From an uncultured Porphyromonadaceae bacterium (GTDB lineage: Bacteria > Bacteroidota > Bacteroidia > Bacteroidales > Muribaculaceae), in the NCBI GenBank assembly GCA_947174995.1, contig CAMWLC010000008.1, positions 1-64,000 of the forward strand: a stretch of DNA of 64,000 nucleotides. Direction: 5' to 3'. The notes below the pieces were generated by a model. It worked only from the letters and a program-made list of their open reading frames with translations. It was not told the origin of the DNA and searched no databases. The position numbers were made by a program, and so were the translations under genes. Shown here piece by piece: positions 2,811 to 58,389 of this stretch. How positions within the stretch are numbered: the first letter of the stretch is position 1; the number at the start of each line of letters is the position of its first letter.

Positions 2811-3601
2811 CCGACACGCACACTCATCTCTACACTATCGGCTTCCCCGATGAGGCCCGCGCGACCGTGCGCCGCGCCGTAGAGGCGGGGGTGGTGCGGA
2901 TGGTCTTTCCGGGCATTGATCCGGAGAGCGCTCCGGCCCTGCTCGCACTGGCCCGCGAATGGCCCGACAATGTCAGGATAGCCTTGGGACTGCATCCCAC
3001 CGAACTCGGCTTCGACTGGCGAGGACGCCTCGCGGAGATGGAGCGGATGTATGCCGAATCGGGGCTTCCGGTGGCCGCGATAGGGGAGGTGGGCATCGAC
3101 TTGCACTGGGAGCAGGAGACTATCCCCGAGCAGATTGAGGCCTTTTCCCGGCAACTTGATATGGCCTTGGAGCGTGACATCCCTGTCATAATCCACAGCC
3201 GCGATGCCCTTGACCGGACCATATCCTGCATAAAGGAGTGTGTATTGCGCCACGACGGTCGACTGCCAAAGCTGATTTTCCACAGCTTCACGGGAAGCCG
3301 TGATGATGTGAGGAGGATAAGGGAGGTGTGCGACCCGATGTTCGGCATCAACGGCGTGGTGACATACAAGAACGCTCCGCTTCTGCGCGAGGCTCTCCCC
3401 GAGATAGGAATCGACCGTCTACTCCTGGAGACCGATTCCCCCTACCTCTCCCCGGTGCCCTTCCGTGGACGGCGCAATGAAAGCGCATATCTCCCCCATA
3501 TACTCGGAGCCGTGTCCACGGCTCTCGGCCTTCCCGAAGAAGAGGTGGAAAAGGCCACAGACCGCAACGCGGCCCTCCTTTTCGGCTTTCCCTTACCATA
3601 A
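2807..3601 (+). CDS. TatD-family metal-dependent hydrolase/nuclease
   Basis: A 264-residue TIM-barrel hydrolase. The metal ligands of the TatD family are visible: DTHTHL at the N terminus, the EVGIDLHW glutamate at about residues 94-101, the IIHSR histidine, FHSFTGS, and the C-terminal LLETDSPYLSP. The family is cytoplasmic and acts as a 3'-5' exonuclease on DNA/RNA or as a D-aminoacyl-tRNA hydrolase-like enzyme; the sequence alone does not decide which. The start overlaps the preceding stop by 4 bp. Confidence 0.92.
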   Translation: MTDTHTHLYTIGFPDEARATVRRAVEAGVVRMVFPGIDPESAPALLALAREWPDNVRIALGLHPTELGFDWRGRLAEMERMYAESGLPVAAIGEVGIDLHWEQETIPEQIEAFSRQLDMALERDIPVIIHSRDALDRTISCIKECVLRHDGRLPKLIFHSFTGSRDDVRRIREVCDPMFGINGVVTYKNAPLLREALPEIGIDRLLLETDSPYLSPVPFRGRRNESAYLPHILGAVSTALGLPEEEVEKATDRNAALLFGFPLP

Positions 3602-52777: not shown

Positions 52778-55300
52778 TTATCCTAAGTTTGAGTTATGAA
52801 TTGCCGCAGGGTATCCTGCGGCGGAGATCGCCTCGATGACTCTCTGCGGATCGGCCTCTCCGGTGACCGTGGCTGTGCCTGATACGAGATCCACCGTCAC
52901 CTCCTCCACCCCGTCGAGGGCAAGTATGACTTTTGTGACACGGGCCGTGCAGTGTGAGCAGGTCATGTCGGCCACATCATATACCGTTGTTGTTTTGGTC
53001 TTTGTCAGCAGGGGCGTGGCGGTTTCGGGCCGGGCCATTGTTTCCACTGTACATTCCGCGGGCCGGGCTGTGGCGATAGCCGTTTCTTCCGACCGACGCC
53101 GCGGCCCCAGGCGGCGGCTGCGGAGCAGAAGACTGTTGGTAACCACGCTCACGCTGCTGAAGGCCATTGCCGCTCCGGCAATCATGGGGTTGAGGAGAAA
53201 TCCGTTGATGGGGTATAGCACACCCGCGGCCACGGGCACTCCGATCACATTGTATATGAAAGCCCAGAATAGATTCTGCCGGATGGTGTGCACCGTCGCT
53301 TTCGCCAGGCGTATGGCGTGGGGTATTTTCTGAAGGTCTGACGAGATTATGGTGACTTGCGCCACGTCGATGGCAATGTCGCTACCGGTGCCCATGGCTA
53401 TGCTGAGGTCAGCCGTGGCAAGGGCGGAGCTGTCGTTGATGCCGTCGCCCACCATCGCGACACGTTTTCCCTCGGCTTGAAGACGTTTCACGAATTCCGC
53501 TTTCTCCTGCGGAAGCACTTCGGCCACGGCATGGCTTATGCCCGCCTGTCGCGCTACGGCACGGGCGGTCTCCCGGTGGTCACCCGTGAGCATATAGACG
53601 GTGATGCCCATGGCTTCCATTTCTTCTATCGCTGCGCGTGACGTGGGACGCACCGGGTCGGAAATCCCGGTCAGGGATATGAGTCCCCCTCTGTCGGCAA
53701 ACCATACCAGGGAGCAGGCCCGGCGGGTCATTTCCTCAGCGGCCTTGGCGGCTTGGGGTGGAATGGCGATGCACGCCTCCTCCATGAGGCGGCTGTTACC
53801 GGCAAAGTATTCGCGTCCGCCATGTTCTCCGGCTACCCCGCGTCCGCTCAGAGCTTGGAATCCTCCGATGGAGGCGGGCGTGACATCTGCTAGAGCATCG
53901 GTTATCGCTTTGCCCAGGGGGTGTTCCGACTCAAGCTCAAGGGCCTTGAATATGGCGGAGGCTTCAGGGTCTTCGCGGAAGGTGATGGTATCTTGCACTG
54001 CGGGGGCCCCCACGGTGATAGTTCCTGTCTTATCGAGCACCACGGCGTTGATGCCCGGCGCCCTCTCCAGGGCCTCGGCATCCTTGATGAGTATGCCCGA
54101 CTCGGCTCCGCGTCCTATGCCGACCATGATGGCCGTGGGCGTGGCCAGTCCCAGTGCGCAGGGACATGCTATCACCAGCACGGTGACGGCTGCGAGTAGT
54201 CCGTGCGTGAATCCACCCGTACCGTCGCAAAGGAGCCATATAAAGAAAGTGACGATCGAAATGCCCAATATCACCGGCACGAATATGGAGGCGATTTTGT
54301 CGACGAGTCTTTGCACCGGGGCACGACTTCCCTGGGCCTCCTGCACACTATGTATGATACGCGCCAGGAGCGTGTCGGCCCCCACCTTGTCGGCCGTGTA
54401 GGTGAAGGCCCCGCTTGTGTTGACGGTGCCGGCAAACACTCTGTCGCCCGCTCTCTTGCCTACCGGAATCGGCTCGCCGCTCAGCATCGATTCATCTACG
54501 TATGATTCTCCCGAAGCCACTGTACCATCCACAGCCACGCGCTCGCCGGGATGCACGGCCAGGGTGTCGCCCGGCATTATGTCGGCCACGGCCACTTCGG
54601 AGCGCGTGCCGTCCGGGGCAATCCTCGTCACGGTGTCGGGACGCAGACCCATCAGCCGGCGTATGGCCGAAGCCGTGTTGCCTTTGGCCCGGCTCTCCAG
54701 GAGTTTTCCGAGGAGTATGAAGGCTATGATGACGGCCGAAGCCTCGAAATAGACGTGGGGATGGATGCCGTGGGCCAGCCAGTAGGAGGGGAAGGCCATG
54801 TTCGCCACGCTGAAGAGCCAGGCGATACCTGTGCTCAGGGCCACGAGCGTGTCCATGTTGGCCGAGCCGTGGCGCAACTGTTTCCATGCGCCGCGGAAGA
54901 ACCGCAGTCCCGGCCCGAAAACCACCGGTGTGGAGAGAAGGAGCATTATCAAATTGGCGTATGGCCAGTGCATCCCCAACATTCCGTAGATGACCACGGG
55001 AATGGAGAGGGCAATCGCAAAGATCGTGTTTCTGCGCAGACGTCTGAAATCGGCTTTTTGGCGCAGATCCAGAACTTCGGAATCCTCGGTGATGAGCATA
55101 TCGTATCCGGCCTCGCGCACCGCACGGCGCAGATCCTCGGGCGAACATACATCGCCGTCAAACTCCACCCGGGCAGCTGATGTAGCGAAATTCACCTCGG
55201 CGTGGCGCACACCCTTGCATGCGTTGAGGGTTCTGTCGATGCGTGTCGCGCATGAAGCGCAACTCATGCCTGTCAGAGGAAAATTGCGGGTTTCAGTCAT
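52778..55300 (-). CDS. copA: Copper-type P1B ATPase with metal-binding domains at both ends
   Basis: An 840-residue heavy-metal-translocating ATPase. The N-terminal HMA domain (1-70) has GMSCASC. Eight membrane helices carry the CPC motif in [19 protein letters not shown], the mark of Cu+ transport. DKTGT ([13 protein letters not shown]) is the phosphorylation site, and [24 protein letters not shown] the hinge. A second HMA domain lies at the C terminus (about 770-835) with DMTCSHC, joined by a linker of about 40 residues; in most CopA proteins all HMA domains are N-terminal. It exports copper from the cytoplasm. The start at 55300 is preferred over an upstream Met because the conserved domain begins there and a good promoter lies just before it. 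Confidence 0.94.
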
Positions 55301-55333
55301 ATCAAGTAATAGATGAATGAGGAAAGTTTTTAC

Positions 55334-55365
55334 AAATATAACCCTTTTCAATCCATTATCCAAAT
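55334..55365 (-). promoter_or_regulatory. Proximal promoter of copA
   Basis: On the minus strand TTTG (55365-55362), a 20-bp spacer and TATATTTG (55341-55334) form an exact consensus, with a leader of about 28 nt to the copA ATG at 55300. Confidence 0.8.
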
Positions 55366-55380: not shown

Positions 55381-55484
55381 CGCAATATCAGTCCGCATAT
55401 TGATTTACAGTCGAAATTGTGGTGACATCGCGTGAGATGTCTCCAACCAAACAAATTTTAAAATCAACGGGGACCCCTTGATAA

Positions 55485-55688
55485 ATCTCTTACTTAGAGA
55501 TAGTGAAATCAGTGCAAAGTTATCTCAAAATTACGTAAAAAACAACTGAATATGTAAGAAAAAAAGCAAAGAATAATTAAAATAAGGGGTAATAAACTCT
55601 GCATTTGTTTAGTAAATTGCAAAAACAAATAATACAATCAACTGATGATTATTGACTTAGGTGTAACGCATATCTCTAAGTAAGAGAT
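55485..55688. repeat. 18-nt inverted repeat pair flanking a promoter (possible invertible segment)
   Basis: ATCTCTTACTTAGAGATA at 55485-55502 recurs as its exact reverse complement at 55671-55688. Each copy is itself two short arms (ATCTCT/AGAGAT) around a 5-bp asymmetric core, TACTT in one and AAGTA in the other. The 168 bp between them is AT-rich and contains a promoter pointing left. Read in direct orientation the copies also share the tail AGTGAAA (21 of 24 positions match), which would suit two operators. The wider gene-free stretch 55301-55730 holds this pair, two copA-directed promoters and one short palindrome; I see no coding sequence or recombinase gene in it. Confidence 0.6.
55515..55545 (-). 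promoter_or_regulatory. Promoter inside the inverted-repeat segment
   Basis: On the minus strand TTG (55545-55543), a 20-bp spacer and TAACTTTG (55522-55515) followed by C. It points to copA with a leader of about 200 nt. After inversion of the segment the -7 box would lie at 55651-55658 on the plus strand, about 75 bp before the SGNH hydrolase gene. Confidence 0.7.
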
Positions 55689-55730
55689 AGTGAAAAATTA
55701 AAGATATGCAGTTTACCTAAATCATGAATC

Positions 55731-57173
55731 ATGATGTTGAATCTTATGCTTTTAAAGAAAAATTTTCTTGGATTGCCAGCCATTTTTGCTCTATGCGTTA
55801 TGGCGTGTGGCCAGGTGTCTTGCACACATGACATACCGGATGAGCCGGACAACTGGCTTGAAAATCTCATGCCCGACTATTCGGGCAACTCTTCTGACAA
55901 GAGATACCCGGTGGATGTGGTGCTCCCCAACCGGATATATGCTGTGGTGGGCGACACGCTTCAGCTTTTCTTCCGGGGAATGATTGCGTCGGTCAATCCA
56001 TACAACTATGATATTCTCGTTACGTGTGAGCGAGGTAAGAAATATCCCCGCTACTTCGAGTATGTACCCTCAAAGGAGGATATAGGGGAGATACCCTTTT
56101 CCGTGACATTGCGCGATGACGAGGGGAATATAATGGGGTATGACGAGTGTGTGATCGAGGTGGTGGACAAAGAATGTACGGAGAACTTGCACATAGTGAC
56201 TTTCGGCGATTCACTGACGAGCGGCGGAGTGTGGTGTCAGCACGCGGACAGCCGTCTGCCTGACAATGTCGTGTTCTGCGGAGCCAAGGATAACAGGGGA
56301 ACACATTACTTCGGTGTCGGAGGGTGGACTTGGGCGAGCTATACGACCGCTGCCCGTCCGGGACTCCGTTTCTTCGTCAATGATGTGAATCTCCTGTCGA
56401 TAGGAGCCACCTATACCTGCGACAGAGGCTATAAGTATACTGTCATGGAGATAAACGTCACGGACGGAGCGGGAAATGTACTGATGATGGTCGACAACAA
56501 GACCTGCGAACCGGGTGTTCCCTCAGGTGTATTGACGAAGACGTCCGGAGGGGGCGATTCCGAGCTTTCTTTCACATCCTATACTGCTGAGTGCAGTAAT
56601 CCGCTGTGGGACGGTGATAAAATGACGTTCCGGCCATATATGGAAAGGTATGCCGGTGGCAAAGTGGATGCGGTCTATGCCTTTATGGGATGGAACAGTA
56701 TCCAGCCGTGGCAGACCGATTTCAGCAGGATGATGGATGAGGTGGATAAATTCTGCCGCACCTTCCATGCCGAATATCCGGAGGGCAGAATATATCTGAT
56801 GGGTCTGCAACTTCCGAGTCTGAACGGAGGTATAGGCAATTCGTATGGGGCGACAGGTGACGGATATGCCGATTGCTATGGATTGTGCATCACGGTGTTG
56901 AATCTCAACCGGGAGTACGAACGTTTTACTGAGGAACGAAGCGGCTATGTGGAGTTCCTGAACGTATCGTGTCAGTTTGACTCCGAATACAACATGCCGT
57001 ATACTGACAAACCGGTCAACAAATACAATCCGGAGACCGAGCAGATAGGTACCAACGGAGTGCATCCGAACAACTACGGGTATTACCAGATAGGGGACGT
57101 GGTGATGCGCAGCATCTACGCCTATCGGACGCACGGAGCATCCGCGGGTGTGCCCATGCTCAAGACACGCTGA
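55731..57173 (+). CDS. SGNH/GDSL-hydrolase-like lipoprotein
   Basis: A 480-residue lipoprotein with signal segment FLGLPAIFALCVMAC and a second Cys in GQVSC. Residues about 45-145 form a beta domain. The SGNH hydrolase follows: block I HIVTFGDSLTSGG (Ser nucleophile), block III AFMGWNSIQPW (Asn), and block V GTNGVHPNNYGYYQIGD with the catalytic His. Family members deacetylate polysaccharides or cleave esters at the cell surface. Starts at 55731, 55734 or 55746 are all possible. Base composition is lower in GC than most of the window. No strong promoter faces it in the present orientation of the upstream inverted-repeat segment. Confidence 0.85.
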   Translation: MMLNLMLLKKNFLGLPAIFALCVMACGQVSCTHDIPDEPDNWLENLMPDYSGNSSDKRYPVDVVLPNRIYAVVGDTLQLFFRGMIASVNPYNYDILVTCERGKKYPRYFEYVPSKEDIGEIPFSVTLRDDEGNIMGYDECVIEVVDKECTENLHIVTFGDSLTSGGVWCQHADSRLPDNVVFCGAKDNRGTHYFGVGGWTWASYTTAARPGLRFFVNDVNLLSIGATYTCDRGYKYTVMEINVTDGAGNVLMMVDNKTCEPGVPSGVLTKTSGGGDSELSFTSYTAECSNPLWDGDKMTFRPYMERYAGGKVDAVYAFMGWNSIQPWQTDFSRMMDEVDKFCRTFHAEYPEGRIYLMGLQLPSLNGGIGNSYGATGDGYADCYGLCITVLNLNREYERFTEERSGYVEFLNVSCQFDSEYNMPYTDKPVNKYNPETEQIGTNGVHPNNYGYYQIGDVVMRSIYAYRTHGASAGVPMLKTR

Positions 57174-57329: not shown

Positions 57330-58349
57330 TTAATTCTTGCGCAAAGCCTTAACACGGTCTATTGGTAAATTTGTCGCGGCTGCTATTGTCTCGTCTGTGA
57401 TGCCTATACCGATTAGATTTTTCGCTATATCCAAAGACTGATTGAGCCTTCCCTGTGTCTCGCCCTCGGCAAGACCTTCAGCGCGACCTTCAGCCAGGCC
57501 CCTGGCCATACCCTTGGCCATACCCTTGGCCATACCCTTGGCCATGCCCTGTTCCTCACCGCGTATACGTGCAGTGGCCATCTCCGCGTGATAGTCACGC
57601 GCCTTCTTTAGTTCATAGTCATACTCCCTGCGCTCCGCAGGGGAAAGTTGTGTCAGCGACGCCACTTTGGCAAGACGCCTGAATATATCCTGATGCGAGG
57701 TAAATGCCATTGTCTCCATATCCGCCATATGTTTAAGGTTATACATCCATTGATCAAACGGTGTCTCGCAATCATCCTTGCTTTTCTTAAAAGCCGGCAT
57801 CTGTATAAACACCATCCGCATATAGTCTCCCACGGGTCTCTGATCCTCCTCATCCATGAACCGGCATCTCGTGATCACCTTCTTCGGTAATCCGTCAATA
57901 AAGAAGTCAGACAGGAAAATGCCCACCACCGGTATGACATTATAGTCCCAATATATCTCCGCCTCCGGTTCGCGCGCCTCCAGCGGGTCATCAGCCCATT
58001 CGGTGCCCAGCGGCTCCTGTTTCCCCTTGTATCCCTGCTGGGCCACCGCACGGGACACATAATAGAAAGCACGCTTGAGAAAATACACCTGGTCGTTTGC
58101 CTGCATCTCGATGATGAACCTGTGGCCCGTCGAGGTCTCGCAGTATACGTCATACGCTATGCTCTTGCCCTGTTTCCATTCCCGTGTCTGCTCAGTGGGA
58201 CGGTATCTTACGGAAACTATGTCGCTGAGCACCGGATCATCGGCGAACAGCACATTAAGGAAGGCGCAGAGTATTTCATTCGACACATTTTCCGTGCCGA
58301 ATATTCTCTTGAAACCGGTGTCGAGGAAGGGGTCTACAAATGTGCTCAT
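57330..58349 (-). CDS. Rpn/PD-(D/E)XK nuclease family (transposase-like) protein
   Basis: About 339 residues. The N-terminal nuclease region reads FVDPFLDTGFKRIFGTENVSNEILCAFLNVL, then IAYDVYCETSTGHRFIIEMQANDQVYFLKRAFYYVSRA, with the D...ExQ core of the PD-(D/E)XK fold. YDYELKKARDYHAEMATARIRGEEQGMAKGMAKG follows, then a segment of four-residue repeats (GMAK, GLAE) and a short C-terminal helical domain. Members of the Rpn/PDDEXK_2 group promote RecA-independent recombination or act in phage defence; most are uncharacterised. It stands alone 3' of a tRNA-Gln gene. The start at 58349 (MSTFVDPF) is preferred over 58376. Confidence 0.88.
   Translation of the reverse strand: MSTFVDPFLDTGFKRIFGTENVSNEILCAFLNVLFADDPVLSDIVSVRYRPTEQTREWKQGKSIAYDVYCETSTGHRFIIEMQANDQVYFLKRAFYYVSRAVAQQGYKGKQEPLGTEWADDPLEAREPEAEIYWDYNVIPVVGIFLSDFFIDGLPKKVITRCRFMDEEDQRPVGDYMRMVFIQMPAFKKSKDDCETPFDQWMYNLKHMADMETMAFTSHQDIFRRLAKVASLTQLSPAERREYDYELKKARDYHAEMATARIRGEEQGMAKGMAKGMAKGMARGLAEGRAEGLAEGETQGRLNQSLDIAKNLIGIGITDETIAAATNLPIDRVKALRKN
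57504..57551 (-). repeat. 12-bp tandem repeat inside the Rpn-family gene
   Basis: GGCCATACCCTT repeats three times exactly and once with changes, coding for GMAK units. Unit length keeps the frame, so copy number could vary without breaking the protein. Confidence 0.9.
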
Positions 58350-58373
58350 GGGCGTTGCTTTTGATTGATACTG

Positions 58374-58389
58374 CAAATATACAAATTTA
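58374..58389 (-). promoter_or_regulatory. -7 elements of the Rpn-family gene
   Basis: Two overlapping-register boxes on the minus strand, TAAATTTG (58389-58382) and TATATTTG (58381-58374), both match TAnnTTTG; -33 boxes are weak. Confidence 0.5.

Follow-up and report, generated by a model that had tools for sequence, protein, structure and literature searches.

Between copA and an SGNH-like lipoprotein gene, the window (the whole 64,000-nucleotide stretch of DNA analysed here) carries a perfect 18-nt inverted repeat around an AT-rich segment. Is this segment a promoter that can be turned round, as the initial annotation proposed, or are the repeats sites of another kind? Tsr19 is described as a single tyrosine recombinase that inverts a promoter immediately downstream of its own gene as well as a distant one, and the promoters it inverts control surface and polysaccharide genes (PMC4747536). 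The invertons of gut Bacteroidota have been grouped by repeat motif, and some groups are described as having tyrosine recombinases nearby (PMC11892184). The locus examined here resembles those invertons, as they are described, in that a promoter motif of the Bacteroidota lies between inverted repeats and close to surface genes, and the family of site pairs to which it belongs may already be one of the published groups. The terms Muribacul and helical are absent from the main text of that paper.

We consider it very probable that the unit is an inverton, that is, a Bacteroidetes-type promoter between sites for a tyrosine recombinase of 401 aa encoded elsewhere in the genome, on contig C34. Elements of this type are already known; what a specialist might not expect is that private cores are matched within pairs and that the lengths fall into classes. 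Through the analysis, what was one suspected switch becomes a system that can be tested.

Two sites and a promoter between copA and a lipoprotein gene

The features of the locus are as follows.

52778..55300, minus strand: copA, copper-type P-type ATPase
55333..55364, minus strand: copA's own promoter-like site, TTTG-N20-TATATTTG
55485..55502, plus strand: putative left recombination site, ATCTCT-TACTT-AGAGATA, a perfect inverted repeat with the right site, with the arms of the family
55503..55670, no strand: putative invertible segment of 168 nt; the sites are spaced at 187, which falls in the middle length class (184-190)
55503..55509, plus strand: GTGAAAT, which flanks the left site on its inner side and forms the outer part of a presumed half-site
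55515..55522, minus strand: -7 box TAACTTTG of the putative invertible promoter, now facing copA, with 13 nt between box and site, as is most frequent in the family
55543..55545, minus strand: TTG in the -33 region, located 20 nt upstream of the -7 box
55671..55688, minus strand: putative right recombination site, the left-site sequence on the opposite strand, core exactly inverted
55689..55695, plus strand: AGTGAAA, which flanks the right site on its outer side; a flip would let it pair with the flank on the promoter side, forming a 13-bp stem
55731..57173, plus strand: SGNH/GDSL-like lipoprotein gene, presumed target, expected to be OFF as assembled

The repeat arms at 55485-55502 and 55671-55688 enclose 168 nt exactly as first described, and the cores TACTT and AAGTA are exact reverse complements, the opposed arrangement that inversion needs. 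Each site is a dyad, ATCTCT-N5-AGAGAT; the dyads start at 55485 and 55672, 187 bp apart. Because each arm is itself a dyad, a direct-repeat reading is equally true. In direct orientation 21/24 positions are identical, and all three differences lie within the 5-nt core. This likeness would also suit a pair of operators, with a repressor bridging the divergent promoter region by looping and the orientation fixed. Operators are often dyads, and one site is found shortly beyond the start of the minus-strand promoter, whereas the other precedes the lipoprotein gene. The initial annotation had counted the direct likeness, including AGTGAAA, on the side of operators. The likeness itself stands. Its value as a sign of operators is largely lost, and AGTGAAA agrees with what is seen in the outer part of half-sites.

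A genome-wide search for further copies of the site had been proposed with the initial annotation. With exact arms, ATCTCT-N5-AGAGAT was absent elsewhere in the source assembly (2.45 Mb, 82 contigs, 92% complete). When up to two mismatches were allowed, the window gave five matches against 1.1 expected, four of them being the two sites read on both strands. The locus was found in no other searched genome (111 genus genomes and 396 others of the family set). The site search matched 12 stretches in viral contigs. The single stretch of the genome collection that matched a 24-nt pattern, in a Sulfurimonas bin, was taken as chance.

The segment contains TTG-N20-TAACTTTG on the minus strand, as annotated, and a second box lies 24 nt from the left site. 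The promoter now faces copA, whose own promoter-like site at 55333-55364 is nearer to the start of copA. Before the lipoprotein gene, which had been said to lack a clear promoter, TTG-N18-22-TAnnTTTG was not found on the plus strand of 55481-55740 in the present orientation. Because the assembled promoter faces copA, which has its own promoter, the lipoprotein gene should be OFF in this state. Turning the segment would place the -7 box at 55651-55658, a computed 72 nt before the ATG at 55731 (about 75 bp in the initial annotation), and the gene would be ON. The mRNA of the turned state would start near 55666, by estimate, and begin with a 13-bp stem-loop; the predicted energy of this leader is -23.9 kcal/mol, versus -16.3 kcal/mol for the same coordinates now. 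We infer that the cell, presumably that of a gut bacterium, can probably switch the surface lipoprotein gene on or off by turning the segment.

An extended hairpin was tried and rejected as a general rule of the family: when the inner flank at the promoter end was compared with the present outer flank, at least six letters agreed in 10/77 pairs only. Compared with the far outer flank, at least six letters agreed in 4/77 pairs, and the window locus is among these four.

The lipoprotein matches PF13472 at 25.1 bits, under the cut-off of 32.9, and its GDSL assignment is weak. The gene had no match in the other genomes of the 111-genome genus set nor in the 396 others of the family set; a paralogue (40-42% identity) lies on contig C80 of the same assembly. 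DNA of the copA region matched few of the 30 relatives searched.

Several minor features surround the switch. An imperfect 35-nt inverted repeat (77%) at 55645-55679 and 55698-55732 surrounds the right site and may be a degenerate additional copy of the site plus flank. A dispersed palindrome resembling GACATCGC-GCGATGTC lies between copA and the switch, at 55424-55441, and recurs at two more places (contig C8, 65851-65893, and contig C30, 2305-2347, of this genome, G000); a sequence resembling it also lies upstream of the recombinase gene on C34. A gene for a PD-(D/E)XK (PDDEXK_2) transposase-like nuclease (57330-58376) adjoins the lipoprotein gene on the opposite strand.

A family of site pairs with matched private cores

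The single-site pattern ATCTCT-N5-AGAGATA was present in 65/111 genus genomes, and its reversed control gave 6 matches in 4 genomes. With relaxed arms and a spacing fixed by the search at 172-202 bp, 110 pairs were found in 58/111 genus genomes, and the reversed-pattern control gave 0. Stricter arms at a spacing of 170-200 bp identified pairs in 27/397 family genomes, belonging to 7/30 genera.

The cores of each pair match in inverted form. In 33/33 pairs listed from the stricter-arm family search, read by eye, the same 18-mer starts both strands. Pairs were also chosen from the retrieved loci by their arms alone (at most one mismatch, 100-400 bp apart), the core playing no part in the choice. 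Among these 65 pairs, which are distinct sequences and not independent events, 62 have identical cores in inverted orientation and 0 in direct orientation; the other three are cross-pairs between two neighbouring elements of locus L093. Relaxed arms at 140-280 bp gave an inverted core match in 86/87 pairs, the exception being a third site beside the pair of locus L246. Between loci, cores agree in 62/2080 comparisons.

If the sites were operators, there would be no cause for the cores to vary between loci and yet be matched, inverted, within each locus. On this evidence the operator pair was rejected, and we regard it as very improbable. The pairs could also be the ends of a small family of non-autonomous transposons, which would explain why many loci have a short segment with inverted ends. 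A transposon end would not be expected to vary in its core from locus to locus and yet match within the pair, nor to hold a promoter at a fixed place at one end. The core matching led us to reject transposon ends, an explanation that we find scarcely credible. For the inverton, since the core differs between loci, exchange should stay within a locus. Paired private cores thereby suggest how many switches could share one enzyme without DNA exchange between loci.

The promoter occupies a fixed place in the family. An outward TAnnTTTG box is at most 30 nt away from a site in 57/62 pairs, at one end only in 54/62, and the -7 box is 12-15 nt inside the site in 55/62. Windows of 38 nt from the middle of the segments contain a TAnnTTTG box in 6/176 cases.

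Beyond the dyad, T at position 1 and A at position 6 of the flank are each present at 77-88% on all four flanks (77 pairs), and the commonest flanks are TACTTA and TTTGGA. AGTGAAA is a variant with the A at position 6, which the window locus has on 2/4 flanks only. Since two of its four flanks match the outer half-site poorly, the window copy might be slow or locked.

Homologous loci were compared with regard to orientation, and three groups contain the segment both ways round. In the first, seven loci from five genomes fall into two orientation classes, one of two loci (G005:C40, G014:C194) and one of five (G107:C107, G109:C147, G109:C228, G012:C147, G014:C151). The classes are consistent in the 18 comparisons listed; the flanks hold internal repeats and a few short matches run otherwise, so the matches nearest the site or the longest were used. 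Between G005:C40 and G107:C107 the inside is reversed (94% identity over 184 nt) between flanks that run in the same direction (left, 88.6% over 193 nt up to the site; right, 76.7% over 176 nt). In the second group, contigs C11 and C69 of G102 share a left flank (96.5% over 1,758 nt) and have the inside reversed; these may be two loci, because their right flanks are unmatched. In the third, G032:C38 and G131:C3 share a left flank (86% over 1,135 nt), their promoters are opposite, and the reversed inner match covers 33 nt, which is under the cut-off of the stricter comparison. Opposite orientation of L087 and L093 was suggested by a 25-nt match, which was too short and was left uncounted. Segments reversed between collinear flanks also argue against operators of fixed orientation.

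The same orientation was seen in both copies of G033:C8/C53, G033:C23/C34, G115:C222/C356 and G022:C21/C46, and in eight comparisons among loci linked to a recombinase gene. Within the stricter-arm family set, 5/27 loci lie at most 300 bp from a contig end versus 0.7 expected. Mixed orientations could cause such breaks, as could other causes.

The first long reading frames beside the pairs (n=75, including that of the window) include NusG (6), FHA (4), KOW (4) and SrfB (3). Because NusG/KOW, FHA and SrfB proteins adjoin pairs in relatives, the family probably governs surface and polysaccharide functions.

Some neighbours and arrangements stand apart. At 9/73 site-fetched pairs, the gene for a protein of 446-480 aa starts next to the pair and reads away from it. 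The protein weakly matches an integrase SAM-like domain close to its N-terminus, and matches NusG or KOW nearer to its C-terminus. It is possibly a recombinase-NusG fusion under control of the switch. Its genes in relatives include the following.

L066, 8619-10025: SAM-like/NusG-KOW protein
L055, 3011-4399: SAM-like/NusG-KOW protein
L086, 1866-3215: SAM-like/NusG-KOW protein
L100, 1-1350: SAM-like/NusG-KOW protein

Locus L246 (G033:C14) has sites at 3406, 3592 and 3759, a pair plus a third site with another core, and L093 has two neighbouring pairs within one locus. Both are possible composite switches. In two genomes a cysteine-rich protein and a protein that looked radical-SAM-like by eye adjoin recombinase-linked pairs (L159, 3018-3605; L174, 3-1145), and these are possibly phase-variable peptide products.

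A candidate tyrosine recombinase that would act in trans

This genome has 11 tyrosine-recombinase (PF00589) matches. None (0/11) is on the window's contig, which for the tyrosine class agrees with the initial annotation that no recombinase gene is in the window. One of the 11 is the candidate.

G000, contig C34, 24156-25358, minus strand: candidate tyrosine recombinase, 401 aa, with arm-binding, SAM-like and PF00589 domains

G144, G189 and G176, the three further genomes with pairs that were examined, encode relatives of this protein with 50-62% identity, and 75/111 genus genomes have a homologue at E 1e-60. Pair and homologue occur together in 54 genus genomes; 4 have the pair only (no homologue at E 1e-60), 21 the homologue only (no pair within the searched spacing) and 32 neither. 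The association is strong when relatedness is ignored (Fisher P 8e-10).

Recombinase genes also adjoin the pairs. A homologue lies within 1.5 kb of 27/86 pairs in the retrieved loci, within 604 nt in 26 of the 27, and 26/27 of the linked genes read towards the pair. The promoter faces the recombinase gene in 19/24 linked loci with a clear promoter. Because 13 of the 27 linked loci had been fetched by means of the recombinase, the less biased figure for linkage is that of the site-fetched pairs, 14/73. It is a recombinase gene, not a regulator gene, that recurs beside the pairs, a further point against operators. Beyond the family, homologues of 45-55% identity were found in 15/295 order genomes, a count that includes G000 and one family member. 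An inverted repeat of at least 14 nt lies a few tens of nucleotides past the 3' end of the gene in 8/17 out-of-family loci examined, and two of these repeats have clearly related arms, CTCTTTATAAGAGA and TCTTTCTTCATAAGAGAAAAT.

Residues R249, K275, Y345, R348, H371 and Y380 are invariant in 21/21 aligned proteins, the C34 protein included. We take R249, K275, R348, H371 and Y380 to be the catalytic residues of a tyrosine recombinase. The family carries YxxR, not HxxR, and a first scan for recombinases near the pairs was empty because its motif required HxxR. No NCBIfam model reached its cut-off for the C34 protein; among solved structures, the closest matches are XerC/XerD-like (E about 3e-5).

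No pair lies beside the C34 gene in the 3.2 kb examined, where the contig ends 300 bp from the gene. The recombinase would for this reason have to act in trans. With relatives encoded next to pairs of this kind, the C34 protein is likely to be the invertase of the window locus. Compared by description, it resembles Tsr19 in being a tyrosine recombinase with catalytic residues that would act on a distant promoter. The C34 gene differs in having no local pair in this genome, whereas some of its relatives do have an adjoining pair. One enzyme acting on many distant promoters is also described for Mpi of Bacteroides fragilis (PMC4747536). Mpi is described as a serine recombinase, whereas the candidate here is a tyrosine recombinase. 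The site of an Mpi-type serine invertase would be even-centred with a 2-bp core; the dyad here is odd-centred with a variable 5-nt core.

It may be asked whether the window locus is a former inverton, now locked in this strain, with the enzyme absent in practice or acting on other sites. The genome has only one pair, none lies beside the recombinase gene, and the common A is missing from two of the four outer flanks. Against this stand the perfect 18-nt repeat, core and -7 box, and a recombinase that is full length and retains its catalytic residues. We consider locking unlikely. The proposal of an invertible promoter is supported at the level of the family, by cores matched in inverted form, a box at fixed distance, both orientations at homologous loci and a linked recombinase that would here act in trans. 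The initial annotation was right on the kind of element, and its operator objection is largely answered. A genome with one pair and one recombinase of this type is a minimal case in which to ask whether the enzyme flips a distant site.

Segment lengths and the helical repeat

The proposed inversion would begin when the recombinase brings the two sites together across a short loop, and strand exchange in the 5-nt core would then turn the segment round. The 86 segment lengths are consistent with a constraint on such a loop. They fall into classes of 172-178 bp (22), 184-190 bp (35) and 193-200 bp (22), and none is at 179-183 or 191-192 bp; the gaps allowed in the search bounded the range of lengths and set no classes inside it. 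Lengths outside the three classes are 163, 208, 230, 240, 244, 254 and 256 bp.

Periodicity was examined with one length per sequence cluster. For 64 clusters the resultant is 0.70 at 11.4 bp versus 0.57 at 10.5 bp. The period of 11.4 bp has a bootstrap interval of 11.05-11.65, and smooth nulls reached the observed value in 0/3000 trials at each of three bandwidths. Clustering into 46 gave 11.25 bp, and into 17 gave 11.85 bp with a wide interval. In all three strict clusterings (64, 46 and 17) the null was reached 0 or 1 times in 3000. With very loose clustering into 7 clusters the phasing was absent, the null being reached in 535-574 of 5000.

The length quantum of about 11.4 bp is near the in vivo helical repeat. 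Fits to lac loops in E. coli are given as 11.08-11.60 bp per turn (PMC1762422), and about 11 bp per turn is also given for lac loops (PMC8501960). We infer from the length classes that, with a short loop between them, the two sites have to face one another. Helical phasing of the spacings would also suit a repression loop between operators. A literature search of a limited collection found nothing joining Muribaculaceae with invertons, or an inverton with helical phasing.

For the inverton, a wider proposal can be made, to which we give about an even chance. The pairs would form one family of switches, spread through a single bacterial family that may be Muribaculaceae, where a tyrosine recombinase of one type acts in trans on several promoters, private 5-nt cores act as addresses that prevent cross-talk, and segment lengths come in whole helical turns (about 174, 186 and 198 bp). 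If this is true, the in vivo helical repeat of short DNA loops in these bacteria can be read from the segment lengths. The length classes also lead to a sharp prediction, with good flipping expected near 174, 186 and 198 bp and poor flipping near 180 and 192 bp.
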